Origin: a virus
Length of the DNA stretch: 35,540 nt
IMG/VR virus record: IMGVR_UViG_3300020404_000259
Coordinates: 1-35,540 of that record
Direction: 5' to 3' (one strand)
In this document: one piece after another, positions 3,972-14,880 of the stretch
Layout: the number at the start of each line of letters is the position of its first letter
How positions within the stretch are numbered: position 1 is the stretch's first letter
Position numbers and translations under genes: made by a program
The notes under the pieces: model-generated
What the model was told of the DNA's origin: nothing
Seen by the model: only the letters and a program-made list of their open reading frames with translations
Database searches by the model: none

Positions 3972-4307
3972 CTAGGCGAAGCACCCGTTGAAATTTACCT
4001 CGATTCCGTTTTCAAAATCTTTAACTGTTTTGTTCTGGTAGTCACCTACGAACCATTCCCAGTTTTTTTGAAATACTCCGAAACCTGTCGCAAACTCATA
4101 ACATAGAGCGTTTAATCTGCTCTTAGTTGTGTTTGACTGCCAACCGCCATCGAATAAAACAACAGTGTTATCTGTTACTGTTGCGATGTGATTGCCATGT
4201 AAAAAGACCTGTGCACCGTTTTCATCATGTGAAACAGAAGTGTTAGAACTGCTGAAGTTGTTACCAGTTCTGATTGCTCTGTTCATTTGTGCTTCGATCT
4301 TTCTCAT
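3972..4307 (-). CDS. Phage protein of unknown function (111 aa)
   Basis: The longest frame would start at 4385, but that extension runs through the promoter module, so the ATG at 4307 is chosen, about 27 nt below a TATAAT box. The protein has a basic N-terminus, a Ser/Asn-rich stretch and a compact beta region (VVLFDGGWQSNTTKSRLNAL), then an aromatic segment (FGVFQKNWEWFVGDY). The motifs recall small conserved phage proteins without an assigned role. It is the only gene of its unit and is closed by the terminator at 3918-3940. Confidence 0.8.
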   Translation of the reverse strand: MRKIEAQMNRAIRTGNNFSSSNTSVSHDENGAQVFLHGNHIATVTDNTVVLFDGGWQSNTTKSRLNALCYEFATGFGVFQKNWEWFVGDYQNKTVKDFENGIEVNFNGCFA

Positions 4308-4334: not shown

Positions 4335-4393
4335 ATTATAACCCCCTAGCAACCCCTGTGTAGTCACCTTATGCCACTTTGTCAACTGTCACA
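4335..4393 (-). promoter_or_regulatory. Dyad/-10 promoter module 1
   Basis: TATAAT lies at 4335-4340 on the minus strand. A dyad at 4372-4393 (minus-strand left arm TGTGACA) is centred about 42 bp upstream of it and overlaps the 3' end of the neighbouring gene at 4369-4575. No -35 hexamer is present at the usual spacing. The 26 bp at 4316-4341 are repeated exactly at 7166-7191. Confidence 0.7.
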
Positions 4394-4575
4394 GGGCATT
4401 TGATTTCCATATAATAACCGATTGATTTAATATAATCAAATACGGATAATTTCGGCAATTCTTTATATCTTTCCCCTCTACGGTTTCTAACATCGTCCAT
4501 AAAATGTTCCATGTCGTAAATTGATACAAACTCCCCTACAAGTTCGCATTCTTCGTTGTAAATTAGATAGGTCAT
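4369..4575 (-). CDS. Small hypothetical protein (68 aa)
   Basis: An upstream in-frame ATG exists at 4587, but GGAG sits at the right distance before the ATG at 4575, so that start is used. The protein begins MTYLIYNEECELVGEF, a beta-hairpin-like start common in small phage proteins, then has a charged helical middle (DDVRNRRGERYKELP) and a Cys near the end. Its stop codon is at the edge of dyad 1. Function is unknown. Confidence 0.75.
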   Translation of the reverse strand: MTYLIYNEECELVGEFVSIYDMEHFMDDVRNRRGERYKELPKLSVFDYIKSIGYYMEIKCPVTVDKVA

Positions 4576-4596
4576 TTTATTCTCCATTGTTTATAT

Positions 4597-4797
4597 TTAA
4601 GGGGTGTAAACATAATAACAATAACCTTCTGACATGAGATAATTTGCTGTCTTAGTTAACATCGGATCATCCCAACATTGATCGGTATCTAACAAGAATT
4701 GAAACAAAGAGATACCTTCATTTAGTGGGCATAATCCTTTCTCATAAAGTGTTAATAACTCAAGGTACTTTTGAGGTGCTTTGATGTTACTTAGCAT
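4597..4797 (-). CDS. Small hypothetical protein (66 aa)
   Basis: The protein is helical in its first half (YLELLTLYEKG), has two Cys residues, and ends in an aromatic tail (YCYYVYTP). It is the first gene of a two-gene unit with 4369-4575 and follows a near-consensus sigma70 promoter about 40 nt upstream. No family is recognised. Confidence 0.75.
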   Translation of the reverse strand: MLSNIKAPQKYLELLTLYEKGLCPLNEGISLFQFLLDTDQCWDDPMLTKTANYLMSEGYCYYVYTP

Positions 4798-4835
4798 TGA
4801 TACTTAGAACCTTTGTTTGAAACCCTACAGTGTTA

Positions 4836-4864
4836 ATTGTACCAGAATTATAATAATTTGTCAA
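4836..4864 (-). promoter_or_regulatory. Sigma70-type early promoter
   Basis: On the minus strand TTGACA (4859-4864) and TACAAT (4836-4841) are separated by exactly 17 bp, upstream of the gene starting at 4797. Unlike the nine dyad modules it has a full -35 box and no dyad. Confidence 0.8.
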
Positions 4865-4987
4865 GTCTATCTGAGTTTTCTGACAGATGTTGACTTTCGG
4901 TAAGTTGCGTGCTAAGAGTACATTTAGTTGACACATTTAACACACTATTGTAAACACTTAGTGATTTTTTTAAGTATTTAACAATAT

Positions 4988-5131
4988 TCACAAATTTCTA
5001 CGGAAAGTAACATTTTTCCTTCTTACAGTTAATCTATAATAGTCCCATAAGTCTACAGTCAGTTCTTTACACATAGTCCAAAATGTGTTAAACTCGTTGT
5101 TACTTACTCCCTGCGGATTACTCTTCTTCAT
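4988..5131 (-). CDS. Small basic protein (47 aa)
   Basis: The frame runs from ATG at 5131 to TGA at 4988-4990. It overlaps the end of the 80-residue gene by 14 nt, and GAGG inside that gene serves as Shine-Dalgarno. The product begins MKKSNPQGVSNNEFNTFW and ends in a strongly basic run (YYRLTVRRKNVTFRRNL), suggesting nucleic-acid binding. Function is unknown. The 120 nt between its stop and the promoter at 4864 show only T-rich sequence and a short CACT/AGTG palindrome. Confidence 0.65.
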   Translation of the reverse strand: MKKSNPQGVSNNEFNTFWTMCKELTVDLWDYYRLTVRRKNVTFRRNL

Positions 5132-5360
5132 TGTTAGTTACCTCTTCAAAGTACCTATTCTGTTTATTACTTTTAACCATATCTTTCCATTGATGACTAT
5201 ACACTAGTAGGTTTACTTGTTGATACTTACTACATGCACCTATCTGTAATTCTTCTCTCTTTTCCCATTCATTTAGTACTAGGGTTATATAATCTTTATC
5301 AATGAAATTAACGAACCCAAAATGTTCATTAAGTGAGTAATAATCGCCTTTTTGAAACAT
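5118..5360 (-). CDS. Small hypothetical protein (80 aa)
   Basis: The start FQKGDYYSLNEHFGFVNFID suggests a small beta-barrel-like fold. The protein then has a charged middle (NEWEKREEL) and an acidic tail of Glu residues. Only 2 nt separate its start from the stop of the upstream gene at 5363. The next gene starts inside its last codons. No family is recognised. Confidence 0.75.
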   Translation of the reverse strand: MFQKGDYYSLNEHFGFVNFIDKDYITLVLNEWEKREELQIGACSKYQQVNLLVYSHQWKDMVKSNKQNRYFEEVTNNEEE

Positions 5361-5362
5361 AA

Positions 5363-5575
5363 TTAGATCTTTAAATAAGGGAACTGATTGTTATCGAAAA
5401 AGACTAATTCATTATGAACTAGACACTTTTCGTTTAAATGTTCATCATAGATAGCAACATTCTTTTTCAACTGATTAGGGTTGAGTTGTTGTAACTTAGT
5501 GAGCAAATCTTCATAGGTCATTGTTGCCATTACGTTAGTAGTTTGTTCACTCCAAGGGATAAGATTCCAAGACAT
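5363..5575 (-). CDS. Small hypothetical protein (70 aa)
   Basis: Core residues TYEDLLTKLQQLNPNQLKKN form an amphipathic helix followed by short beta strands. This pattern is common in small phage and bacterial proteins that begin MTYxxLLxxLxxLxxxQL. The ATG at 5575 gives 70 residues, but starts at 5530 or 5521 would fit that pattern better. None has a convincing Shine-Dalgarno. Function is unknown. Confidence 0.65.
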   Translation of the reverse strand: MSWNLIPWSEQTTNVMATMTYEDLLTKLQQLNPNQLKKNVAIYDEHLNEKCLVHNELVFFDNNQFPYLKI

Positions 5576-5617
5576 TTGAATTAATAAGTTAATACTACTT
5601 ATACATGATTGCGGACG

Positions 5618-5824
5618 TTATTTATCACTTTCCGCACCAAGTTCATTTAGATCCGCAATAGTGAATAATTGATAATCTTCCTCCAATTCTTTAATATCAA
5701 ACTCCATCATGTAATGATCTAGATTAACACCTAATCGGGCAATTTCATTTAGATAAGATTGCATAACTTTCTTAGACTTGAAGTCATAAATGTTATGTTC
5801 TGTTGTCAAAGTTTGCTTAGTCAT
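5618..5824 (-). CDS. Small acidic hypothetical protein (68 aa)
   Basis: The protein is helical and acidic, with its C-terminal half rich in Asp, Glu and Leu (EFDIKELEEDYQLFTIADL). Its stop lies in GATAAATAA, which resembles a late promoter box and may be coincidental. It lies 41 nt below the DUF7717-like gene. No family is recognised. Confidence 0.7.
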   Translation of the reverse strand: MTKQTLTTEHNIYDFKSKKVMQSYLNEIARLGVNLDHYMMEFDIKELEEDYQLFTIADLNELGAESDK

Positions 5825-5865
5825 TGTTAATTAGTGAGTAGAGTAAGTATAAAGAAAACAGGCGA

Positions 5866-6321
5866 TTATCTCATATAGAGATGACCACCTGCCCAGTCTG
5901 TATTGATTGGATTGTGTATATAATTTCTCTCTCTGATAATTCTCATATCAAATCTTACATGTTTAGCGGGACTTTTCCATGATGCAGGTTTATATACCTG
6001 ACCAGTTTTTTTATCAACAAATGCTGTTACTGATCCGCCAGAATGTCTAGGATCAACTTGAATAATCTTGAAATACTTTTTACCAGACTTGATTTCAAAC
6101 TTAAGTAATTTCTCTGTACCGTCTTCGATACCTTTTAATTGCTGTTTAGCATAGTCTGATAAGTCTGCTCTAGGGTTAAGAATATTTCTAGAGTGCATAT
6201 TAATACGATACTGCTTATAATTCTCAGTCAATGCGTTTGCATATGCTTCAGTCCATTCTACAACTCTTTGCTCTAGAGTTTTTGTTTCTAATTCTTGAGT
6301 AGTTAGAGTTGTGATTGTCAT
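5866..6321 (-). CDS. DUF7717-like conserved phage protein (151 aa)
   Basis: The C-terminal half carries the pattern KYFKIIQ, then SVTAFVDKKTGQVYKPASW, then KHVRFD, and ends WAGGHLYMR. This matches a widespread small phage/bacterial family whose members share VHAFVDxxTGxVYKPASW and end in GGYLY; I recall it as DUF7717, of unknown function. The ATG at 6321 is used. A longer form from GTG at 6375 would add a hydrophobic stretch (FLAYFTFFFIIL) that looks translated by chance but cannot be excluded. It is preceded by dyad module 2. Confidence 0.8.
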   Translation of the reverse strand: MTITTLTTQELETKTLEQRVVEWTEAYANALTENYKQYRINMHSRNILNPRADLSDYAKQQLKGIEDGTEKLLKFEIKSGKKYFKIIQVDPRHSGGSVTAFVDKKTGQVYKPASWKSPAKHVRFDMRIIRERNYIHNPINTDWAGGHLYMR

Positions 6322-6407
6322 AGTGAGAATAATAAAGAAAAAAGTGAAATAAGCAAGAAAGGTATCCCTAAGCACTTGTGAATGTTAGCATTCTTGCTTA
6401 TGTTCTT

Positions 6408-6467
6408 ATTATAGGGGAAGAACCAACCACATAAGGGCAATAGTGGACAGTTTATAAAGTGTCACTA
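6408..6467 (-). promoter_or_regulatory. Dyad/-10 promoter module 2
   Basis: TATAAT lies at 6408-6413 on the minus strand. The dyad 6441-6467 has arms TAGTG/CACTA flanking GACA/TGTC, is centred about 41 bp upstream, and overlaps the stop of the gene at 6452-6631. A 7-codon frame (MLTFTSA) follows the box and may be a leader peptide or chance. Confidence 0.6.
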
Positions 6468-6631
6468 TGCTGCTTGACAAGATATTCTCCTGTCTGTATT
6501 CTTTCAAATACTGCTGACTGTTCATCAGTCAGTTCAAAATCCATATCTCTGAGAATATCCCAAAGTTTAATCATCTGGTAAGATTCATCAAATGACATTG
6601 GAATTGAAATGGGGAAATAAGTTTTTGACAT
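6452..6631 (-). CDS. Small hypothetical protein (59 aa)
   Basis: The frame runs from ATG at 6631 to TAA at 6452. It begins MSKTYFPISIPMSFDES and is otherwise helical and acidic (LWDILRDMDFELTDEQSAVF). Its start shares one base with the stop of the upstream gene (TAATG). Its stop lies inside dyad 2, so it is the last gene of its unit. No family is recognised. Confidence 0.7.
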   Translation of the reverse strand: MSKTYFPISIPMSFDESYQMIKLWDILRDMDFELTDEQSAVFERIQTGEYLVKQHSDTL

Positions 6632-6792
6632 TAATCGTACAATGGGTAACGTACTTCTTTTTCAACTGCATCCTTCATTACATCATACATTGCAAATTCG
6701 GGATCTTCCAATTTACAAGTTGATAGGATGTTGATAACCTCCTCCATGAGACCGATTATCATTTTTTCTTTTGGTGTTGTCTTCATTGGCAT
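6631..6792 (-). CDS. Small helical protein (53 aa)
   Basis: The start at 6792 is chosen over 6828 because GAGG lies 5 nt before the ATG, inside the end of the overlapping upstream gene. The protein begins MPMKTTPKEKMIIGLMEEV and is predicted all-helical with an acidic second half. It sits in a chain of overlapping genes. Function is unknown. Confidence 0.7.
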   Translation of the reverse strand: MPMKTTPKEKMIIGLMEEVINILSTCKLEDPEFAMYDVMKDAVEKEVRYPLYD

Positions 6793-6941
6793 AAGTCCTC
6801 GAATCTTTCTCTTGCAATATACTCGCAATGCTCCTGCAATGCTTCCTCGGTTAGTGTATCAGCAATGCCTGATTTCTTCATTGCTTCATACTCTTCATCA
6901 AAAAGAGTTTCTAACATATCTGCGTGATGTAAAACTGACAT
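6783..6941 (-). CDS. Small acidic helical protein (52 aa)
   Basis: The frame runs from ATG at 6941 to TGA at 6783, and its start directly follows the stop of the gene at 6942-7160. It is rich in Glu and His and helical (ETLFDEEYEAMKKSGIADTL), with two Cys residues near the end. It carries the Shine-Dalgarno for the next gene in its final codons. No family is recognised. Confidence 0.7.
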   Translation of the reverse strand: MSVLHHADMLETLFDEEYEAMKKSGIADTLTEEALQEHCEYIARERFEDLCQ

Positions 6942-7160
6942 TTAAGCAACCTCCCTTATGTAACCGTTTTCTGCTTTGATGAATGCATCTAACTTAGCAA
7001 CATCTAGATCAGCATCATCAAATTCAATTTTAGCACATCCTGTAACACCCCACTCTTCCAACTCTTGAGTAAATTCTGCCCAGTTAGAGCAACAACATGC
7101 CATGTTTTGAAAGTTGTCAACTTGAACGATTCTGTTCATGATTGTTTGAGTTTTGTTCAT
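6942..7160 (-). CDS. Small Cys-containing protein (72 aa)
   Basis: The N-terminal part contains NMACCCSNWAEFTQELEEWG with three consecutive Cys, then a Cys at VTGCAKIEFDDADLD and a helical C-terminus. The clustered Cys residues could bind a metal, but no known motif fits exactly. It starts 18 nt below the 26-bp promoter/leader repeat of module 3 and heads a three-gene chain. Confidence 0.75.
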   Translation of the reverse strand: MNKTQTIMNRIVQVDNFQNMACCCSNWAEFTQELEEWGVTGCAKIEFDDADLDVAKLDAFIKAENGYIREVA

Positions 7161-7184
7161 AGTATCTTTGTTTGTTATGTACTT

Positions 7185-7244
7185 ATTATAAACAATAATG
7201 AGATCAAAAGAAACCCACCTTGTGCCACTTTGTTATGTGTCATA
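7185..7244 (-). promoter_or_regulatory. Dyad/-10 promoter module 3
   Basis: TATAAT lies at 7185-7190 on the minus strand. The dyad 7221-7244 (arms TGTGCCAC and GTGTCATA) is centred about 42 bp upstream and contains the stop codon of the gene at 7233-7367. The promoter and leader 7166-7191 are identical to 4316-4341. Confidence 0.7.
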
Positions 7245-7367
7245 GTCCTCCAGTTTTTTGAATAGGTTTGCATTAATGTGAATTATCTCTGCTTTGAGAT
7301 CATCATTCTCAGAATAATGAAAGTTTAAGCATTCTTTGAGATATTCAACTTCTTCCTTACTAAACAT
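7233..7367 (-). CDS. Small helical protein (44 aa), paralogue of the next gene upstream
   Basis: The frame runs from ATG at 7367 to TAA at 7233. It begins MFSKEEVEYLKECLNF and ends NANLFKKLEDYDT. The pattern (EE-Y-LL start, acidic middle, FxKLE end) parallels the gene at 7360-7515, so the two look like a diverged tandem duplication. Its stop lies inside dyad 3. Function is unknown. Confidence 0.65.
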   Translation of the reverse strand: MFSKEEVEYLKECLNFHYSENDDLKAEIIHINANLFKKLEDYDT

Positions 7368-7515
7368 TAGCACCCTCCAGTTTATCGAATGAATGATAGA
7401 ATAAGAGATCCAAAATTCTCTCGCTTAATACTTCTTCTTTATCAGTCATATAAAGACGGTAGTTTTTAAATGCTGAATAGAGTAGTTCATACTCTTCTCT
7501 TGTTAAATCTCTCAT
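7360..7515 (-). CDS. Small helical protein (51 aa)
   Basis: The frame runs from ATG at 7515 to TAG at 7360. It begins MRDLTREEYELLYSAFKNYR and ends SFDKLEGANV. It overlaps the downstream paralogue by 8 nt and the upstream membrane gene by 4 nt (ATGA). The pair of similar genes suggests a small helical fold that has been duplicated. No family is recognised. Confidence 0.7.
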   Translation of the reverse strand: MRDLTREEYELLYSAFKNYRLYMTDKEEVLSERILDLLFYHSFDKLEGANV

Positions 7516-7649
7516 TTTTTATCATTATTAAGTGGACTTGCGAAGTAATCCCTATTGGCAACAAATAAAACTAGCAATGCTGTGAAGATGCCAAAGAATC
7601 CAATTATCAATATTGGGGACTGGGGAAAATCGTAGGTTGGAATTGTCAT
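7512..7649 (-). CDS. Single-pass membrane protein (45 aa)
   Basis: Residues 13-31 (ILIIGFFGIFTALLVLFVA) form one clear membrane helix after a short polar N-terminus. The C-terminus is polar and ends in Lys-Lys. The stop overlaps the next start as ATGA. Its place in the early region suggests a small host-membrane factor, but no function can be assigned. Confidence 0.75.
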   Translation of the reverse strand: MTIPTYDFPQSPILIIGFFGIFTALLVLFVANRDYFASPLNNDKK

Positions 7650-7652
7650 TGT

Positions 7653-7817
7653 TTAATCCTCGTAGTATGGTGCAAAAAGTTGATAGTAAAAATCATCAAA
7701 GATTTGAAACTGGTAAGCGGTATCTGCTAGAGTTTCATCCTGATCCCATCCTTTACCGATTGTATTAGTGGGATGATTGTAACAGTCTAGAACTGCCTGA
7801 TAAGTATCGTATTTCAT
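7653..7817 (-). CDS. Small hypothetical protein (54 aa)
   Basis: The frame runs from ATG at 7817 to TAA at 7653. It is acidic and aromatic-rich (FDDFYYQLFAPYYED at the C-terminus) with a helical N-terminus (YDTYQAVLDCYNH). Its start overlaps the stop of the gene at 7814-8026 as ATGA. Its last codons carry a GAGGAT Shine-Dalgarno before the membrane gene. No family is recognised. Confidence 0.7.
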   Translation of the reverse strand: MKYDTYQAVLDCYNHPTNTIGKGWDQDETLADTAYQFQIFDDFYYQLFAPYYED

Positions 7818-8026
7818 TTCTTTAAAATTCCTCTAGTTGAAGTTGACAAGTAAGTAGACTTTGCTGACATTACATTGTCTACCATGTTATCGAAAGTCTG
7901 GACATCCCAGTCTTTCATTTCTGCGATGTCTAGATCATATGCTGACATCACGAGGTCAACGAGCATATCGTATTGACCAGAAGTAATCTCGATGTTGAGA
8001 CCTTTAGTGGAAGTTGTTTTGTTCAT
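7814..8026 (-). CDS. Small helical protein (70 aa), possibly leaderless
   Basis: An upstream ATG at 8092 would translate through the promoter module, so the ATG at 8026 is used. The product begins MNKTTSTKGLNIEITSGQ and continues as an acidic amphipathic helix (YDMLVDLVMSAYDLDIAEMK). It lies only about 7 nt below the TATAAT box, which would put the transcript start at or next to the ATG. No family is recognised. Confidence 0.75.
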   Translation of the reverse strand: MNKTTSTKGLNIEITSGQYDMLVDLVMSAYDLDIAEMKDWDVQTFDNMVDNVMSAKSTYLSTSTRGILKK

Positions 8027-8032
8027 GTCTTT

Positions 8033-8092
8033 ATTATAACCACTCATGACCCCATTGCGAGGATCATTGTGCCACTTTATCATCTGGCACAA
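8033..8092 (-). promoter_or_regulatory. Dyad/-10 promoter module 4
   Basis: TATAAT lies at 8033-8038 on the minus strand. A perfect 8-bp dyad TTGTGCCA (8067-8074) / TGGCACAA (8085-8092) is centred 41-42 bp upstream, and its loop contains the stop codon of the gene at 8080-8367. Confidence 0.75.
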
Positions 8093-8367
8093 GGGTTTGG
8101 ATTTCCGTTGTGATCTTTTGGTAGTCTTAAATCGTTCTCATCAGTATAGTATGAGTCTACTGCATTCTTCACTTCTTTATAAACACCTAAAATGGCATCT
8201 TTACCAAAATAGTCATGTTCGATTGTATCATGACCAGTACAAGAAGATCCCCAACTTGTTACATCGCTATCGATGCGAGCATATAATCCTCTGGTTATAT
8301 GGTTAAGTAATCCTAGTTCTCTTTTAGATAATCGGATTACTACTTCTTTTGAATTGTCGTAGTTCAT
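8080..8367 (-). CDS. Small hypothetical protein (95 aa)
   Basis: The start at 8367 is chosen because it overlaps the upstream stop as ATGA; the longer frame to 8421 would run into that gene. The protein has a beta-strand start (EVVIRLSKRELGLLNHITRG), a Gly/Ser/Cys/His middle and a Pro/Asn-rich end. Its stop is inside dyad 4. Function is unknown. Confidence 0.75.
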   Translation of the reverse strand: MNYDNSKEVVIRLSKRELGLLNHITRGLYARIDSDVTSWGSSCTGHDTIEHDYFGKDAILGVYKEVKNAVDSYYTDENDLRLPKDHNGNPNPCAR

Positions 8368-8642
8368 GAGCATTGTAAAGTGTAAAGTTTTCTCTCTTCT
8401 GTTGTTAGACAACATTCGCAAATTCGATGTGCGAAATCGTAGAACATAACAGGGGCATCATCATCCCATCCGTAAACATCGTTTGGTGTAATGTCTTCAT
8501 CAAGTGGAATCTTTGTATCACATCTGTCACACTCTAGTGAAGCACATTCAGCACACATATAACCATCATCGGACGGTATTCTGTTTACATACCATCCAGA
8601 TCCAAAATCTACGGATCTACCACATTCTGTGCAACATGTCAT
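8364..8642 (-). CDS. Zinc-ribbon-like Cys-rich protein (92 aa)
   Basis: Four Cys clusters are visible: C4-x2-C7, C30-x2-C33, C38-x2-C41 and C75-x-C77-C78. This spacing is typical of small structural zinc ribbons or LIM/rubredoxin-like knuckles, which would hold one or two zinc ions. Between them lies an acidic stretch (DEDITPNDVYGWDDD). It is joined by ATGA overlaps on both sides. It may bind nucleic acid or a host protein. Confidence 0.8.
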   Translation of the reverse strand: MTCCTECGRSVDFGSGWYVNRIPSDDGYMCAECASLECDRCDTKIPLDEDITPNDVYGWDDDAPVMFYDFAHRICECCLTTEERKLYTLQCS

Positions 8643-8857
8643 TTTTGATCTCCATAATAGTTTACTGCATCGGACACAACTAAGTGCCTATGAATGTAGA
8701 GTAACTTATCAAGTTCGATACCCTCTAAGTCAGTCCACTCACTCACATAATCGGTTTGATCTTCCATGAGAGTGCCATCCTTTAACCAAGGACATGAGCA
8801 TAAGTTATGCTCTTCATCTAACCAAAATGCTCTACCAAAGTGAAGTGAATGTATCAT
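8639..8857 (-). CDS. Small hypothetical protein (72 aa)
   Basis: The protein begins MIHSLHFGRAFWLDEEHN and is acidic, with Trp, His and Cys residues scattered along it and a helical C-terminal half (LDKLLYIHRHLVVSDAV). It is linked by ATGA overlaps to both neighbours in a four-gene chain (9117 to 8080). No family is recognised. Confidence 0.75.
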   Translation of the reverse strand: MIHSLHFGRAFWLDEEHNLCSCPWLKDGTLMEDQTDYVSEWTDLEGIELDKLLYIHRHLVVSDAVNYYGDQK

Positions 8858-9117
8858 CTGAAATTCAACTCCCTGACTGGGTTTTGAGCATCTTCGATTG
8901 CTCTAGTTTCGATGATGATGTCTCTGACTCTTTCTCTATCGAGACTATCGCCCTCGCCCCAGTTGATTGTATCAGTTGATGCACATAGATCAAGATACTT
9001 AAGGATTGCGATTGCGATCTCTCCAGTTGTTAGTCCATCGATAGGATAGAGAACATCGGGATGACTAGGTAAGTAGAATGATTCAACATACTCTAGAAAT
9101 TCTTGAAAGTTGTGCAT
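8854..9117 (-). CDS. Small acidic hypothetical protein (87 aa)
   Basis: This is the first gene of a four-gene chain. AAAGGA stands 5 nt before the ATG at 9117 and a TATAAT box about 20 nt further up. The protein is acidic and helical (NFQEFLEYVESFY; IAIAILKYLDLC) and ends in a charged segment (DRERVRDIIIETR). Function is unknown. Confidence 0.8.
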   Translation of the reverse strand: MHNFQEFLEYVESFYLPSHPDVLYPIDGLTTGEIAIAILKYLDLCASTDTINWGEGDSLDRERVRDIIIETRAIEDAQNPVRELNFR

Positions 9118-9137
9118 GTGTCCTTTGCTTAACTATT

Positions 9138-9199
9138 ATTATAATAGAGGATATTCACAACGAATGGGGAAACTATGTGCCACTAATCGAACTGGCACA
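9138..9199 (-). promoter_or_regulatory. Dyad/-10 promoter module 5
   Basis: TATAAT lies at 9138-9143 on the minus strand. The dyad TGTGCCA (9176-9182) / TGGCACA (9193-9199) is perfect over 7 bp and centred about 44 bp upstream, next to the stop of the gene at 9200-9433. Confidence 0.75.
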
Positions 9200-9433
9200 C
9201 TACCACATTTCTTCTGGTTGTTTTGCTCTATTATCCATCATTAGTTGATATTCTTCTTCTGTTCTTACTCTGAGTCTATCTTGTGTCTCTTGTAACTGTT
9301 GTAATGTGTTCTCTATCTCTGGAAATTCGAGATCACATCCTGCTTCATTGATCTCTGAGATCTTCCACTCAAGATAGTAAATCACATCACTTAGTTGATC
9401 GTAACTAAGGGGAACATTGATTGTTTTGGTCAT
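9200..9433 (-). CDS. Small coiled-coil protein (77 aa)
   Basis: After a beta-like start (TINVPLSYDQLSDVIYYLEW) the protein is a long Gln/Glu-rich helix (NTLQQLQETQDRLRVRTEEE) likely to form a coiled coil. It is the last gene of a three- to four-gene chain starting at 10092, and dyad 5 follows its stop directly. No family is recognised. Confidence 0.75.
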   Translation of the reverse strand: MTKTINVPLSYDQLSDVIYYLEWKISEINEAGCDLEFPEIENTLQQLQETQDRLRVRTEEEYQLMMDNRAKQPEEMW

Positions 9434-9675
9434 GCTAGTCTCCTGTCAAGTAAGTAAGAAATAAAGTTGTTGTGGTCTGCCCAGTCCTGATCGTAAAAGT
9501 CTTCGATGACTTGTTCAATTACTTCCTGTTTAGTTTGCTCACTCGCAAACTCATATCCATAGGATTGTATGACATGCTCAATATCTGCTCTCACGTCAAC
9601 ATACTCAAGTCTAAACTTAAGGATGTCTGGGCAAGATTCGATCCATGCCTGAAAATCTTTGTCTGCTTGATTCAT
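9430..9675 (-). CDS. Small hypothetical protein (81 aa)
   Basis: The protein is acidic and predicted helical throughout (FQAWIESCPDILKFRLEYVD; EVIEQVIEDFYDQDWAD). It overlaps both neighbours by 4 nt (ATGA), which indicates coupled translation. A single Cys and several Trp are present. No family is recognised. Confidence 0.75.
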   Translation of the reverse strand: MNQADKDFQAWIESCPDILKFRLEYVDVRADIEHVIQSYGYEFASEQTKQEVIEQVIEDFYDQDWADHNNFISYLLDRRLA

Positions 9676-9893
9676 TCTTTGATCTCCTCGATAATTTCAT
9701 CAAAATACTCATCCCAGTACGAGTATGCTTCATCAATAAATTCTGCTTCATTTAACTCGTTGACATAGTTGTATAGATCATCAGTCACATATTGAATAAG
9801 TGACTTCATGTCCATACCATCTACCATTCTCTCAACATACAAATCTTTGAGATTGTCAAGTTGGTTGTCTGTTAGATCTCCTGTTTTAAGCAT
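9672..9893 (-). CDS. Small acidic helical protein (73 aa)
   Basis: The ATG at 9893 is used: GGAG lies 8 nt upstream and the start sits just inside the end of the upstream gene. The longer frame to 9962 would overlap that gene by 77 nt. The protein begins MLKTGDLTDNQLDNLKDLY and ends in a strongly acidic run (DEYFDEIIEEIKE). It resembles its acidic helical neighbours in composition, but no family is recognised. Confidence 0.7.
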   Translation of the reverse strand: MLKTGDLTDNQLDNLKDLYVERMVDGMDMKSLIQYVTDDLYNYVNELNEAEFIDEAYSYWDEYFDEIIEEIKE

Positions 9894-10092
9894 TGTCTTC
9901 TCCGATTGTAAAGTTTTTAAGGAAAATGAATTTGTAATCGCCATCTTGCGGATCTTTGCCATCTACCAACCACTCTTCACATATAGCAAGAGCATCAAGT
10001 TGTTTCTCACTCTTGATAAGATTCTTCATCTGGTCAAAGAGTGAATCTGCCATGTTGTCGATGGCATATTCTCTTTCGAGTTGTAGATCCAT
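9886..10092 (-). CDS. Small hypothetical protein (68 aa)
   Basis: This is the first gene of a chain. AGGA precedes the ATG at 10092, with a TATAAT box further upstream. The N-terminal half is helical and charged (LEREYAIDNMADSLFDQMKN), and the second half contains Asp/Gly turns and a hydrophobic strand (YKFIFLKNF). No family is recognised. Confidence 0.75.
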   Translation of the reverse strand: MDLQLEREYAIDNMADSLFDQMKNLIKSEKQLDALAICEEWLVDGKDPQDGDYKFIFLKNFTIGEDNA

Positions 10093-10114
10093 GTGTGTCC
10101 TGTTGAACTATACT

Positions 10115-10177
10115 ATTATAATGCCATAAAAAACCCCCTGATGGGGGGTTTAGTGGTCACTTTGTGAACTGTCACAT
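10115..10177 (-). promoter_or_regulatory. Dyad/-10 promoter module 6
   Basis: TATAAT lies at 10115-10120 on the minus strand. An imperfect dyad (10151-10177, minus-strand TGTGACAGTT then CAAAGTGAC) is centred about 44 bp upstream and overlaps the end of the gene at 10177-10395. A terminator lies between the dyad and the -10 box. Confidence 0.65.
10127..10152 (-). terminator. Rho-independent terminator between dyad and -10 of module 6
   Basis: On the minus strand AACCCCC and GGGGGTT form a 7-bp stem around a 5-nt loop, followed by a T run that ends about 6 bp before the TATAAT box. It would end transcripts of the 10777-10177 gene chain immediately before the next promoter. Confidence 0.75.
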
Positions 10178-10395
10178 CACTTGCCAATACCCATAGGATC
10201 ATCTGCTTGACTTTCTAGATCAGAAATGGTAGTTTCATCGTAGATCTTTTTTTGATACTCTGAAACAGACAGAAATTCATCGCTATCAATTTGATAGGAT
10301 AAACCAGTATTAGCATCAAAGTAAAATCCATCCTCTGAACTATACCAGAAGTCATCCCAGTCCTTTTTTGAGTTGGTTACATCTTTAGTTGTCAT
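10177..10395 (-). CDS. Small acidic hypothetical protein (72 aa)
   Basis: The start at 10395 is used because it overlaps the end of the upstream gene by 11 nt; the longer frame to 10455 would overlap it by 71 nt. The middle is aromatic and acidic (DDFWYSSEDGFYFDANTGLS), like a short WW-type beta hairpin with DxxTGxS. The end is acidic. No family is recognised. Confidence 0.7.
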   Translation of the reverse strand: MTTKDVTNSKKDWDDFWYSSEDGFYFDANTGLSYQIDSDEFLSVSEYQKKIYDETTISDLESQADDPMGIGK

Positions 10396-10534
10396 CGTAG
10401 TAAACCCTAACTGAAAGTTCTGCATTGTCTGGTAGTTCTCCATACTGTTTTTCAAATGCTTCCCATAGTTGTTTTACTATTGGATTGTAAAGATCATCAG
10501 GTAGATCTACCAAGTTGTAATATTTATCAGTCAT
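10385..10534 (-). CDS. Small hypothetical protein (49 aa)
   Basis: The frame runs from ATG at 10534 to TAA at 10385, with AGGAG 8 nt upstream. It reads MTDKYYNLVDLPDDLYNPIV, then a helix (KQLWEAFEKQYGELP) and a short strand. It lies 9 nt below the stop of the 77-residue gene. Function is unknown. Confidence 0.75.
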   Translation of the reverse strand: MTDKYYNLVDLPDDLYNPIVKQLWEAFEKQYGELPDNAELSVRVYYDDN

Positions 10535-10543
10535 TTTAGTCTC

Positions 10544-10777
10544 CTATAGAAATGATGTTAGAGCGTGGGGTGCATTTGGTTGGTAGTCAATCGATCTAAT
10601 ACACCAACCAGTTGTATCTGAGATTTTATCAACTAAGTCATCCTCTGACTCAACTTCCCAAAGACCAAGTGCATTGTTTGTGTTGAAGTCTTTTTCTTCC
10701 TGAGATAATTGCCACTCAGGGTTTCCATCCCCAAATTCATCAAAGTCAAACTCAATGTCTGTTACTAAAAGTTTCAT
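10544..10777 (-). CDS. Small acidic hypothetical protein (77 aa)
   Basis: The start MKLLVTDIEFDFDEFGDGNP and the later LWEVESEDDLVDKISDTTGW give an acidic beta-alpha-beta-like pattern. The protein ends with SIDYQPNAPHALTSFL. It overlaps the upstream gene by 4 nt (ATGA). Small phage proteins with a similar start are common in cyanophage early regions, but no function is known to me. Confidence 0.75.
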   Translation of the reverse strand: MKLLVTDIEFDFDEFGDGNPEWQLSQEEKDFNTNNALGLWEVESEDDLVDKISDTTGWCIRSIDYQPNAPHALTSFL

Positions 10778-10953
10778 TTTGAATCTCCTAATGCTATTTT
10801 GTCCATTGCTTTAACTGCATCAAACAAATCATAGTGTGCATTATCCAATTCATATTCTCCTGCAAGTGCTTCAGACTTATAGATGTCTGGTAGATCTTTG
10901 ACTGCATCATACAGTTCATTGAATTGATCTTTTGTCAATGTGAGTGTGACCAT
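10774..10953 (-). CDS. Small acidic helical protein (59 aa) behind a structured leader
   Basis: The frame runs from ATG at 10953 to TGA at 10774, with AAGG as Shine-Dalgarno. It begins MVTLTLTKDQFNELYDAVKD and has a second similar helix (YDLFDAVKAMDKIA), so the two halves may be an internal repeat. It is the first gene after dyad module 7, and its mRNA would begin with the long hairpin at 10974-11047, which suggests post-transcriptional control. Function is unknown. Confidence 0.75.
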   Translation of the reverse strand: MVTLTLTKDQFNELYDAVKDLPDIYKSEALAGEYELDNAHYDLFDAVKAMDKIALGDSK

Positions 10954-10973
10954 AGTGACCTTAAATTAGATGG

Positions 10974-11047
10974 GTCGAAACAAAACTCACTGATTCTCAT
11001 ATCTTAGTAGGATAACCCCACAAATGAGTTCGGTGGTTTGTTTCGAC
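10974..11047 (-). ncRNA. Long 5' leader hairpin
   Basis: Perfect 11-bp arms GTCGAAACAAA (10974-10984) and TTTGTTTCGAC (11037-11047) enclose further pairing, including CTCAT/ATGAG at 10996-11000 and 11024-11028. On the minus-strand RNA an apical stem GUGGG-GUUAU-CCUAC also forms. The right arm (11037-11047) lies about 5 nt below the -10 box, so the transcript would start with this structure. It is a candidate cis-regulatory RNA or stability hairpin. Confidence 0.6.
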
Positions 11048-11051
11048 ATTA

Positions 11052-11112
11052 TTAATATAACATGCTGAGACCCTGCTGTGTGCCTCTGTGTGCCACTTTA
11101 AGTAGTGGCACA
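11052..11112 (-). promoter_or_regulatory. Dyad/-10 promoter module 7
   Basis: A -10-like TATTAA/TATATT lies at 11052-11059 on the minus strand. The best dyad in the family, TGTGCCAC (11089-11096) / GTGGCACA (11105-11112), is perfect over 8 bp. It is centred about 42 bp upstream and directly follows the helicase stop codon. Confidence 0.7.
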
Positions 11113-12345
11113 TTAGGAAACATAGGATACTGGCGGAATGCCCTCAACAAAGATATAATCAATGACATTCTGTAGTCTCTTTGCAATGCGATCTCCATAC
11201 TTGTAACCAGTAGGTACGATTGCCTGACCAAACTGTTTTTTATACAAGTTGAATGCACCAACTGGAATGAGTCCCTGCTCAACTGCTTTACGATCATCTT
11301 TGTGAATACGAATGACCCTACCAATAGTTTGTGCCATTTCAATAATAGGCAAGTTCCTCAACAAAACAGTATGAGTGAGACCAGTAACATTGATACCTTC
11401 AGACAGTATGCTGTAGTGAAAAACAACGAACCTCCTACTGTTATCGTTGCCCCACTCAGTAAGAGTATTGAAAAACTCTTCACGTCCAACTTTCTTGCCA
11501 TTGATGATAGCACCAAACTTTGATGTGATATGCATAACGTCATATCCATTCTCTTTGAGATAGTGTAGAATGTCAGTCCTACCCAACATGAAACCTAGGA
11601 TCTTTGAACTAGGGGCAGCAACCAAAACTTTTGCTACTTCATTACTATCGAATGAATCTAGAATGTCTTTTAGGTTGGCAGCATCTACCTCAAAGTTGTT
11701 GTGCTTATCCCTGACTCGATCAGTCTCGAAAGGCACAACTTTAGGTGGTAGAATAGCACCTGCTTCGATCAATTCCTGTGCGGGTACTGACTCTAGAGTC
11801 TGACCCCACACTTGTGAGTTGTTCATGCCACGATTCTTTGATGCACCACGTCCAAACTTAGGTGTTGCTGTGAATGCAAACCTGCGACTAGCATTGTATG
11901 TCATGCCCATCACACCTTCAAAGAATCTTTTGCCTGTTCCATTGTGTGCTTCATCGTAGTAAATGGTATCAACATTGATGTCAGCATCTACCACACGATG
12001 CAATGAGTGATAAGTTGTAAAAATGATCTTATGCTTAGTATGTGTGCTTACAAATAGTTTCACATCCTCTGCTTTTGTGCTAGAGAAATAGTGTGTCTCT
12101 CCTGAGTGAACATGCATAATATCTGCATCGAGACTGAACTCTGTAAACTCTGCACACAACTGATTTGCCAACAGAATACGAGGTGCAACTACAACTGTAG
12201 TTGAATCATATCTCTGCTTCATTTGCTCCAACAAATCAGCGATCATGATATAAGTCTTACCACCACCAGTAGGCACGATGATCTGACCCATGTTGTATTC
12301 CTGCATGCGATCAAATGCACGTTGCTGATGTGGTCTCAAGTTCAT
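11113..12345 (-). CDS. SF2 DEAH-box helicase (UvsW-like, 410 aa)
   Basis: This is a DNA or RNA unwinding ATPase. The Q-like region LRPHQQRAF opens the protein, Walker A is PTGGGKT (25-31), motif II is DEAH (131-134), motif III is TATP (159-162) and the C-terminal motif VI is QTIGRVIR. This is the core of SF2 helicases related to T4 UvsW, RadD and type III restriction subunits. At 410 residues it holds just the two RecA-like domains, without the N-terminal extension of T4 UvsW. In T4 UvsW remodels branched DNA and removes R-loops at origins; a similar role is inferred. It stands alone between modules 8 and 7. Confidence 0.88.
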   Translation of the reverse strand: MNLRPHQQRAFDRMQEYNMGQIIVPTGGGKTYIMIADLLEQMKQRYDSTTVVVAPRILLANQLCAEFTEFSLDADIMHVHSGETHYFSSTKAEDVKLFVSTHTKHKIIFTTYHSLHRVVDADINVDTIYYDEAHNGTGKRFFEGVMGMTYNASRRFAFTATPKFGRGASKNRGMNNSQVWGQTLESVPAQELIEAGAILPPKVVPFETDRVRDKHNNFEVDAANLKDILDSFDSNEVAKVLVAAPSSKILGFMLGRTDILHYLKENGYDVMHITSKFGAIINGKKVGREEFFNTLTEWGNDNSRRFVVFHYSILSEGINVTGLTHTVLLRNLPIIEMAQTIGRVIRIHKDDRKAVEQGLIPVGAFNLYKKQFGQAIVPTGYKYGDRIAKRLQNVIDYIFVEGIPPVSYVS

Positions 12346-12364
12346 AAATCAATCTTTCAATAAT

Positions 12365-12426
12365 ATAATAATACAAGAAAAAACCCCTTGTGTCAAGGGG
12401 TTTAGTCCAGTTTGGCAACTGTCACA
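12365..12426 (-). promoter_or_regulatory. Dyad/-10 promoter module 8
   Basis: TATTAT lies at 12365-12373 (two overlapping registers) on the minus strand. The dyad region 12404-12426 (minus-strand TGTGACAGTT, then CAAACTGG) is very similar to module 1 and centred about 42-45 bp upstream. It overlaps the stop of the gene at 12422-12634 and drives the helicase. Confidence 0.65.
12378..12402 (-). terminator. Rho-independent terminator between dyad and -10 of module 8
   Basis: On the minus strand AACCCCTTG and CAAGGGGTT form a perfect 9-bp stem with a 3-nt loop, followed by a T run. It ends the 13223-12422 unit before the helicase promoter. Confidence 0.85.
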
Positions 12427-12634
12427 AGGGTGTCACTTCATGACGTTTACACTCTACGTTCAACTTAATGGATCGATCAGCAACATAATTGTCTACCCAT
12501 TTAACCATACGATCATTTTGTGCAACCTTACCTTTATGTGTTGTTGGTTTAGTTGGCATTGTCCTAGTGAACTGTTCGATAGTTCCATCGTTGTATTCAA
12601 TTTTGATGTTGTACGTTTGAGTTGTCGTTTGCAT
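12422..12634 (-). CDS. Small basic protein (70 aa)
   Basis: The ATG at 12634 overlaps the upstream stop as TGATG and has AGAGG 7 nt before it; an in-frame TTG at 12637 is ignored. The first half is a beta hairpin (YNIKIEYNDGTIEQFTRTMP) and the second is basic (VDNYVADRSIKLNVECKRHE), suggesting nucleic-acid contact. No family is recognised. Confidence 0.75.
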   Translation of the reverse strand: MQTTTQTYNIKIEYNDGTIEQFTRTMPTKPTTHKGKVAQNDRMVKWVDNYVADRSIKLNVECKRHEVTPL

Positions 12635-12795
12635 CAAACCTCTTGTCCTTTTTTGTTGAATGTAATGTTGAGATCAGGGATGAATAGCACACCATCATCT
12701 TTTAACAATGATAGCATACGGAAGAACCAAATGTCGTTATACTGTTGCTCGTATGGATCGAGATCAGGATAATACTTTTGAGAGAATGCGATCAT
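12634..12795 (-). CDS. Small hypothetical protein (53 aa)
   Basis: The frame runs from ATG at 12795 to TGA at 12634. It begins MIAFSQKYYPDLDPYEQQYN and has a hydrophobic middle (DIWFFRMLSLLKDDGVLFIP). It overlaps both neighbours (ATGA upstream, TGATG downstream). The DDGVLFIPDL segment resembles part of the beta strand after motif IV in methyltransferases, but the protein is too short to be one. Function is unknown. Confidence 0.7.
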   Translation of the reverse strand: MIAFSQKYYPDLDPYEQQYNDIWFFRMLSLLKDDGVLFIPDLNITFNKKGQEV

Positions 12796-13223
12796 GATAC
12801 CACCTCTGGAATTGATACAGGAACGATATTAGTACTGACTACGTTATAATTGTCATCATACTTTGTATCAATAGCAAATGCTTCCCACTTGCCATTGTAG
12901 ACATATAAGAACTCTTCTCCTGAGTTTGAGTTCTCTGCATACTCATCAAAGTTTCCATCAAGACGAGGTGCTTCACTATCTCCACCATAATATTCTGGTT
13001 GGGGATCTCTCTTTACAAACTCTTGCTTTTCATTATCATATACATTATCTGACCAACATGAACTCATGTTACCACCATCGATTAGATCAACAATATTCTT
13101 TTTTGTATTGTACTGTTCTTTGAGAGTAACACCCAACCACTCAGGATAACCATCCCAATGATGATATACTGAGAGGATTGAACCATCTGCTAGTTGAAGT
13201 CCGATTCTTGCGTTGGTTGACAT
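12792..13223 (-). CDS. Conserved phage protein of the NARIGxxLxxGxxxSVYHHWDGYPEWLG type (143 aa)
   Basis: The start MSTNARIGLQLADGSILSVY leads into YHHWDGYPEWLGVTL, a signature I recognise from a widespread phage and bacterial family of unknown function. Two Cys residues, an acidic Asn/Asp-rich middle and an aromatic C-terminal beta region (EEFLYVYNGKWEAFAID) follow. It is the first gene of a three-gene unit below dyad module 9. The HHWDGYP block could bind a metal or nucleotide, but I know of no proven activity. Confidence 0.85.
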   Translation of the reverse strand: MSTNARIGLQLADGSILSVYHHWDGYPEWLGVTLKEQYNTKKNIVDLIDGGNMSSCWSDNVYDNEKQEFVKRDPQPEYYGGDSEAPRLDGNFDEYAENSNSGEEFLYVYNGKWEAFAIDTKYDDNYNVVSTNIVPVSIPEVVS

Positions 13224-13242
13224 GTGTTTTTCTTAACTATTA

Positions 13243-13305
13243 ATAGTATGGCATAAAAAATGACCCCTGCCTAGGGGTCATGTGACAGTTTGTAGATTGT
13301 CCTAC
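13243..13305 (-). promoter_or_regulatory. Dyad/-10 promoter module 9
   Basis: TACTAT lies at 13243-13248 on the minus strand. The imperfect dyad 13281-13305 is centred about 45 bp upstream, carries the conserved ACAAA..TG.CACA half, and overlaps the stop of the gene at 13302-13469. A terminator lies between the two elements. Confidence 0.6.
13255..13281 (-). terminator. Rho-independent terminator between dyad and -10 of module 9
   Basis: On the minus strand ATGACCCC and GGGGTCAT pair over 8 bp around a 6-nt loop, and a T run follows. It ends transcripts of the gene at 13302-13469. Confidence 0.8.
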
Positions 13306-14242: not shown

Positions 14243-14880
14243 AACATTGAATCTTTTGGTGTGGGGGACTCTTGTGACGCTTTGTCGTTTGGCATAACGT
14301 ACAAGTTCCCTGAGAATGTAATACGGGGTGTATCTACGGGGTTAGGTGCAACCATATGAGGGTAATGTGATGGGAATACAATCAGATCTCCCTTAGATGC
14401 TTTAGGGATGACTCTAGTTTGTATTGGCATTTTGAATGCATCACTTAAACCAGACTTCTTATACTTGTCATGATCGTTGTATATAAAACGAAACAACGGA
14501 TCTCCGTCAGGTACATCATATAGGTAACACATGCTCAGGTTACAAAAAGGAACATCATGAGTATGATACTCTTGATGCATACCTTTATTATATAGATTTG
14601 CCCATGCCTCTTGAGGTTTGATCTCTATATCAATTTGAGGTTTAAGTTCATCGATCATCTTGTCTAGGGTTGATCGGATACATTCCAACCAATCATTCCA
14701 AGGTAGATCAAGATTACCCTGAGATTGAAATGTACTTAGACAATTACAATCCCAAGGGGAATCTACATAGATGCTTTCGTCTCTGATCTGCGGTTCAAAT
14801 AATTGTTCGATCTGTTGTTGGTATTCAACAGGAACTGTCTCAATGTAATACCATTGAGGACAGAACATTTCTATAGTCAT
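14239..14880 (-). CDS. 2OG-Fe(II) oxygenase (213 aa)
   Basis: Enzymes of this type hydroxylate a substrate using 2-oxoglutarate, O2 and Fe(II). The metal-site region reads QEYHTHD (H106, H108, D109). It is followed by CNLSMCYLYDVP, then GDLIVFPSHYPHMVAPN (H172, H175) and a 2OG-binding Arg in TPRITFSGN (R186). This order and the FPSxxxHxVxPN block match the 2OG-FeII_Oxy_5 family (PF13759) often found in cyanophages. The substrate is unknown. It is chained by ATGA overlaps to genes on both sides and unrelated in sequence to the two other oxygenases in the window. Confidence 0.85.
   Translation of the reverse strand: MTIEMFCPQWYYIETVPVEYQQQIEQLFEPQIRDESIYVDSPWDCNCLSTFQSQGNLDLPWNDWLECIRSTLDKMIDELKPQIDIEIKPQEAWANLYNKGMHQEYHTHDVPFCNLSMCYLYDVPDGDPLFRFIYNDHDKYKKSGLSDAFKMPIQTRVIPKASKGDLIVFPSHYPHMVAPNPVDTPRITFSGNLYVMPNDKASQESPTPKDSML

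Follow-up and report, generated by a model that had tools for sequence, protein, structure and literature searches.

The stretch of DNA analysed here –the window, a 35,540-base virus record of IMG/VR (IMGVR_UViG_3300020404_000259)– has metaG-MbCM1 and P-RSM1, both Kyanoviridae, as its closest named relatives by DNA. Within a stretch of small minus-strand genes, it carries nine sites of one layout: a 22-bp dyad with the consensus GTGMCASTTnnnnAASTGKCAC, a spacer of near-constant length, and a -10-like box (Table 1). A PHROGs scan of ten window proteins returned eight families of unknown function, one DNA helicase and one protein without a match. Judging from sequence comparisons, the nine sites are very probably activator-dependent promoters of a class common to T4-like phages of picocyanobacteria.

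We built a position weight matrix (PWM) from 74 sites, all of them taken from other phages and none from the window, and it recovered all nine sites on the minus strand, with total scores of 19.8-48.5. They lay within a few bases of where an initial annotation of the window had placed them. The dyad end was 30 bp from the -10-like box in seven sites and 31 bp in two, and 20 Markov shuffles of the window gave no PWM hit scoring 8 or more. Thus, the observation of nine dyad-box sites is confirmed as real. Regarding the dyad-to-box distance of 41-45 bp given originally, the constancy held, but the range needs a small correction: measured from the dyad centre to the best box, it is 41-44 bp. The wider range is explained by sites 9177 and 10154, where a TATAAT at 33 bp shares bases with a TATTAT/CATTAT at 30 bp. 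The three spacers said to contain a terminator do so (10154, 12404, and 13282). Because of their palindromic form, four of the dyads are also picked up on the plus strand, with scores of 17.3-28.7; each scores lower there than on the minus strand, but within the range of the weaker minus-strand sites. A sigma-70 TTGACA-like hexamer 16-18 bp above the -10 box had been described as absent, and we agree: the 176 sites with N30 used for the sequence logo had no such consensus, and no position between -35 and -30 carried more than 0.46 bits.

The layout is not confined to the window. The dyad core was found in 13 of 14 genomes compared, coliphage T4 being the one without it, and all 13 carriers –S-CRM01 included– are T4-like phages of picocyanobacteria. 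A PWM scan gave 112 hits spread over 13/13 of these genomes (110 distinct dyads, two of them counted in both directions); T4 gave no hit, and neither did one Markov shuffle of each piece. For a box-blind test, we took 108 dyads of the 13 phage genomes, chosen without regard to any box, and examined both directions. An exact TATAAT occurred 37 times at offset 30, six times each at offsets 29 and 31, and at most three times at any other offset. Allowing one mismatch raised the counts at offsets 29, 30, and 31 to 9, 59, and 16, respectively; the background at offsets 50-149 averaged 1.6. Minor peaks appeared at offsets 33 (14 counts) and 41 (9 counts), and the one at 33 probably reflects overlapping boxes, as at the two window sites. 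In IMG/VR, the specific dyad followed by N30 and TATAAT matched 91 stretches, and none when N35 was used instead; a looser pattern matched at least 120 stretches at N30 vs. 36 at N25. An open reading frame (ORF) related to ORFs of the 13 phages was present at 119 of the 120 listed N30 loci and at 28/36 N25 loci. Many N25 loci are therefore cyanophage-like, and 36 is not a pure chance level. The enrichment at a fixed distance from TATAAT boxes that was anticipated for related cyanophage genomes is thus seen as the offset-30 peak in 13 genomes. Spacing held across 13 phages is in line with the proposed promoter class, in which a DNA-bound factor would sit at a fixed distance above the -10 box.

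Most sites sit in a block of small genes of unknown function, and some lie ahead of helicase/uvsW, peptidase, cobS, and nrd genes. In P-TIM40, ten PWM hits correspond to nine distinct dyads within such a block. Syn9 also has candidate sites in its small-gene block, several of them with half-degenerate dyads and TATTCT-like boxes. The PWM found no sites in P-SSP7, PSS2, pelagiphage HTVC008M, Microcystis phage Ma-LMM01, or KVP40, and in these five phages the dyad core, with one mismatch allowed, was at about control level. HTVC008M is filed under Kyanoviridae, yet has no PWM sites, and Ma-LMM01 is called T4-like in PMC5780444; the element therefore marks the picocyanobacterial T4-like phages examined, not every relative.

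In the logo, the base 7 nt below the box is A in 72% and G in 25% of the sites, and transcription would begin there. With the best-matching box, this putative +1 lies 14-21 nt above an ATG at six window promoters and on the ATG at one. The latter is promoter 4, where the +1 (8026) is the A of the ATG and a leaderless mRNA is predicted; MbCM1 43616 and P-RSM4 47660 are similar. At sites 6444 and 11090, the listed gene starts farther away, 80 and 94 nt downstream of the +1, and other ATGs occur 10 and 47 nt downstream. Downstream of promoter 2 (6349-6401, minus strand), we found an RNA stem-loop of 53 nt, whose 30-nt loop is conserved, the loop sequence TGCTNACATTCACAAGYGCTNAGGGATACC being nearly fixed. 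Among its 17 copies (11 distinct sequences), the outer stem presents compensatory changes at 11/11 pairs. In each copy, the 5' end of the stem is 41-44 bp downstream of the best dyad and 5-7 nt past the -10 box. Maximal pairing, used to find the stem, is biased towards pairing; neither the conserved loop nor the fixed distance depends on that. Agreement between this 5' end and the +1 predicted from the -10 box places the dyad centre at about -53.5 from the putative start. An Rfam search with a lax threshold gave nothing credible for the 6349-6401 hairpin, which may be a leader RNA of the phage, not described before, that precedes the phrog_818 gene.

A different origin of the layout has to be weighed, namely that the dyads are RNA hairpins –for termination, processing, or stability– at the 3' ends of upstream genes, with their distance to the promoters set by compact packing. 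Each of the nine dyads of the window overlaps, or lies directly against, an upstream ORF's stop codon, a fact omitted from the initial annotation (at 7222-7243, this ORF has 44 codons and its stop is at 7233-7235), and the S-CRM01 record labels the dyad copy at 125862-125891 a Rho-independent terminator. However, although upstream stop codons gather close to the dyad (median +2, 13 genomes), they scatter with an sd of 42, while the box peak is one base wide. For covariation, we compared six dyad pairs in 155 non-redundant sites with the expectation from shuffled dyad halves. Position 4/19 was Watson-Crick paired in 49.7% vs. 47.9% expected, and four other pairs were within 1 sd of shuffling. 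The sixth, 7/16, was paired in 23% vs. 40% expected (z -4.8), with G...G and C...C favoured. Arms without covariation at five of six variable pairs and an anti-paired sixth are unlike an RNA stem, which would present the opposite. True terminators were found apart from the dyads, in the spacers: 9/112 spacers contain a GC hairpin with a T run after it, the dyad-box spacing being unchanged, so that terminators and dyads are separate objects. In S-CRM01, site 123574 (minus strand) is located between two annotated genes that diverge from each other, 165c and 166, and there is therefore no 3' end at that copy. We rejected the RNA stem or terminator on the one-base box peak, the N30 vs. N35 counts, and the missing compensatory changes, and regard it as very improbable. 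The earlier argument for a bound factor rather than a transcript feature is supported: spacing is kept despite differing spacers, and the arms lack RNA-type covariation. As an observation on the dyad itself, the 7/16 preference is anti-palindromic within an otherwise symmetric element, with CAGT in one half and CACT in the other.

If the dyads are bound as DNA, the protein could also repress these promoters at a later stage of infection. Repressors typically act on dyad operators, and lytic phages are expected to shut off their early genes. Against this, a repressor needs neither one-base spacing nor a location at -43 to -64, and promoters without a -35 hexamer probably need help; overall, we consider repression unlikely. 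The one-base spacing, the location just upstream of the polymerase, and the lack of a -35 hexamer argue for an activator instead. In the activator-dependent promoters proposed here, a protein –probably a dimer, given the dyad symmetry– would bind the 22-bp dyad centred near -53.5 and would recruit or activate RNA polymerase at a TATAAT-like -10 box without a -35. The sequences themselves show the dyad, its constant spacing, its occurrence in 13 genomes, arms without RNA-type covariation, and a predicted start that coincides with an RNA hairpin; activation rather than repression, early timing, and the dimer are inferred. An early role seems more likely than a middle one. A more specific version is that the phage itself encodes the dimeric activator and perhaps brings it in with the virion, and that its binding at -53.5 takes the place of the -35 contact; this is tentative and falls somewhat short of an even chance.

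Which protein would bind is a sub-question of the activator proposal, and a host and a phage origin divide it. Under the host origin, the phage would exploit CRP, NtcA, PhoB, or another regulator of the cell. PhoB of WH7803 binds S-PM2d promoters, so host transcription factors can act on cyanophage promoters (according to part of PMC10976474), and NtcA boxes were predicted in 16/16 cyanophages (in a section of PMC3037559). Moreover, composite sites occur in cyanobacteria. The full arrangement was found in 21 stretches of genome contigs (84,980 species) vs. about 30 expected by chance, as estimated from the 17 fixed bases. ORF matches marked six of these stretches, located on four contigs, as phage-like, and three were cyanobacterial. 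The latter are a strong match from Synechococcus lacustris (L416, PWM 36.8) and weaker ones from Calothrix (L410, 29.8) and Aphanizomenon (L403, 18.9), and they may be chance or real. On the other side, the dyad core was no commoner than its reversed pattern in host-family genomes, among the matches listed (96/300 vs. about 119/300 by hand count), and the two strong host matches inspected (L427 and L430, with G033 and two matches in G232 left out) lie inside a LysR-type coding gene. The dyad is also unlike the CRP consensus. It further differs from the NtcA site (GTA-N8-TAC) and the Pho-box as described in parts of PMC3037559 and PMC10976474. Among candidate operators, we rejected CRP/NtcA/Pho for misfit of geometry and no dyad excess in the 300 host-family genomes among the matches listed. 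A host regulator, which would have no regulon recognisable as its own, is our second guess, with a low probability.

Our first guess, not far below an even chance, is a phage protein that either travels in the virion or is expressed from an initial promoter without a dyad. The element is present in 13/13 T4-like picocyanobacterial phages examined, has no scoring sites in the T7-like P-SSP7 or in PSS2 of Prochlorococcus, and showed no host regulon among the matches listed from 300 host-family genomes. In contrast, early promoters would need to await such a factor, and the core ORFs examined gave no candidate gene for it. These are 24 of 674 metaG-MbCM1 ORFs, shared by at least 12 of the 13 phages but without a match in T4 and HTVC008M; some are antisense ORFs that are probably spurious, and others presumably correspond to mazG, psbA, hli, and thyX. 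A Pfam scan of six of them identified one Sm-like protein (PF16243) and one DUF3110. The N-terminal part of CobS had a helix-turn-helix match below the Pfam threshold only.

Several points weigh against the activator-dependent promoters as a whole. The 24 core ORFs, six of them scanned with Pfam, gave no convincing activator candidate. At 111/112 hits, a stop-to-stop ORF of at least 40 codons ends between -150 and +60. Four of the nine window dyads (6444, 10154, 12404, and 13282) have one degenerate half, and their dyad-only scores are 12.0-17.4 vs. 25.8-33.8 for the other five. At one of the 17 stem-loop copies, the dyad is very weak (score 2.8). The PWM scan of the 13 genomes limits spacing to 28-32 bp, and the spacing is therefore tested only by the box-blind count and the IMG/VR patterns. 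Finally, the element is absent from Ma-LMM01, which a passage of PMC5780444 names as a T4-like cyanophage.

Table 1. Dyads, -10 boxes, and RNA hairpins in the window (d, bp from dyad end to -10-like box)
Feature	Position	Strand	PWM score and d	Predicted start and downstream gene
Dyad 1, GTGACAGTTGACAAAGTGGCAT	4371..4392	-	48.5, d=30	
Promoter 1, -10 box TATAAT	4335..4340	-		inferred +1 4328; gene 3972-4307 (phrog_554)
Dyad 2, one half degenerate	6444..6465	-	33.2, d=30	
Promoter 2, -10 box TATAAT	6408..6413	-		inferred +1 6401; gene 5866-6321 (phrog_818)
Covarying 5'-terminal RNA stem-loop	6349..6401	-		starts at the inferred +1 of promoter 2
Dyad 3	7222..7243	-	40.1, d=31	
Promoter 3, -10 box TATAAT	7185..7190	-		inferred +1 7178; gene 6942-7160 (phrog_9580)
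Dyad 4, near-perfect	8069..8090	-	47.7, d=30	
Promoter 4, -10 box TATAAT	8033..8038	-		inferred +1 8026; gene 7814-8026, no PHROG match
Dyad 5, near-perfect	9177..9198	-	45.9, d=30 to TATTAT, 33 to TATAAT	
Promoter 5, overlapping -10 boxes TATTATAAT	9138..9146	-		gene 8854-9117 (phrog_7799)
Dyad 6, one half degenerate, terminator hairpin in spacer	10154..10175	-	21.6	
Promoter 6, -10 box CATTATAAT	10115..10123	-		gene 9886-10092 (phrog_710)
Dyad 7, near-perfect	11090..11111	-	41.9, d=30	
Promoter 7, -10 box TATATT	11054..11059	-		inferred +1 11047; ORF 10774-10953
Predicted 5'-terminal hairpin (-27.1 kcal/mol, z -4.7; single sequence)	10974..11047	-		starts exactly at the +1 inferred for promoter 7
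Dyad 8, one half degenerate, terminator hairpin in spacer	12404..12425	-	22.7, d=30	
Promoter 8, -10 box TATTAT	12368..12373	-		inferred +1 12361; helicase gene 11113-12345 (phrog_16)
Dyad 9, one half degenerate, terminator hairpin in spacer	13282..13303	-	19.8, d=31	
Promoter 9, -10-like box CATACT	13245..13250	-		inferred +1 13238; gene 12792-13223 (phrog_1987)
Tenth candidate dyad, weak; box TATGAT	14274..14295	-	14.2, d=30	

Apart from the window, some copies of the element deserve mention. In P-SSM2, dyad promoters at 66431 and 66592 on the minus strand (scores 30 and 53) face leftwards where no minus-strand gene is annotated; an antisense or small RNA is possible there. The Synechococcus lacustris match (L416, 1418-1475, minus strand) is a dyad-box at spacing 30 within a longer inverted repeat, and may be chance, a mobile element, or host use of the signal. 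A contig of the 'Nonlabens xiamenensis' assembly bears the P-TIM40 dyad set, and contigs of TMED113 Flavobacteriales and of a gammaproteobacterial metagenome-assembled genome bear cyanophage-like ORFs. L401, L419 (NZ_RMVE01000006), L404, L412, L418, and L409 are phage DNA filed in bacterial assemblies.

If the more specific version with a phage-encoded activator holds, T4-like picocyanobacterial phages would start infection with a private activator and not with host-like promoters, a plan unlike that of coliphage T4. An element so precisely laid out –22-bp dyad, 30-bp spacing, -10 box, and +1– and present in 13 named genomes and many metagenomic contigs would make the missing activator directly searchable. 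It would also provide an annotation rule for promoters of abundant ocean viruses.

Compared with known systems, the dyad opens with TGTG and closes with CACA, as CRP-family sites do. The CRP consensus is TGTGA-N6-TCACA, with 8 bp between TGTG and CACA, and its sites are centred at -41.5 or -61.5. In the 176-site logo, TGTG occupies -1 to 2 and CACA 19 to 22, leaving 16 bp between them, and the predicted centre is at -53.5. The suggestion of a CRP-like regulator, made in the initial annotation, does not fit this geometry.

In coliphage T4, MotA/AsiA middle promoters combine a TATAAT-like -10 box, no -35, and a DNA-bound helper, with the MotA box at -30. The dyad promoters likewise have a TATAAT-like -10 box without a -35, but with at most 0.46 bits per position at -35 to -30 they have no conserved MotA box. 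Parts of a 2010 review (PMC2984593) state that cyanomyoviruses lack motA, asiA, alt, and modA and call their early and middle control unclear; a passage of PMC5780444 likewise describes T4-like cyanophages as lacking T4-like middle promoters. The suggested role as their middle promoters is doubtful.

So is the label of a new class. Doron et al. (2016) reportedly found a novel early-gene element and host-like middle promoters in Syn9, with P-TIM40 similar, and the element is said to be conserved among T4-like cyanophages. We met no publication printing the dyad motif in the literature searched, which is not proof that none does. Probably, the dyad promoter class has already been reported in outline as that early-gene element, and the nine sites would be new members of a promoter class and not a new class.

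The late promoters dependent on P2 Ogr and P4 delta have a dyad near -55 that is bound by a phage activator. Similarly, the dyad described here would be centred at -53.5 from the predicted +1, above a -10 box. There are differences: the consensus of Ogr-dependent promoters is TGT-N12-ACA (in a part of PMC3931495), whereas the outer TGT and ACA are 18 bp apart here, so that this rule is not followed. The dyad phages are T4-like, unlike P2, and the genes concerned are mostly small and of unknown function. Nonetheless, the P2 Ogr promoter would be the best functional parallel for the nine sites.

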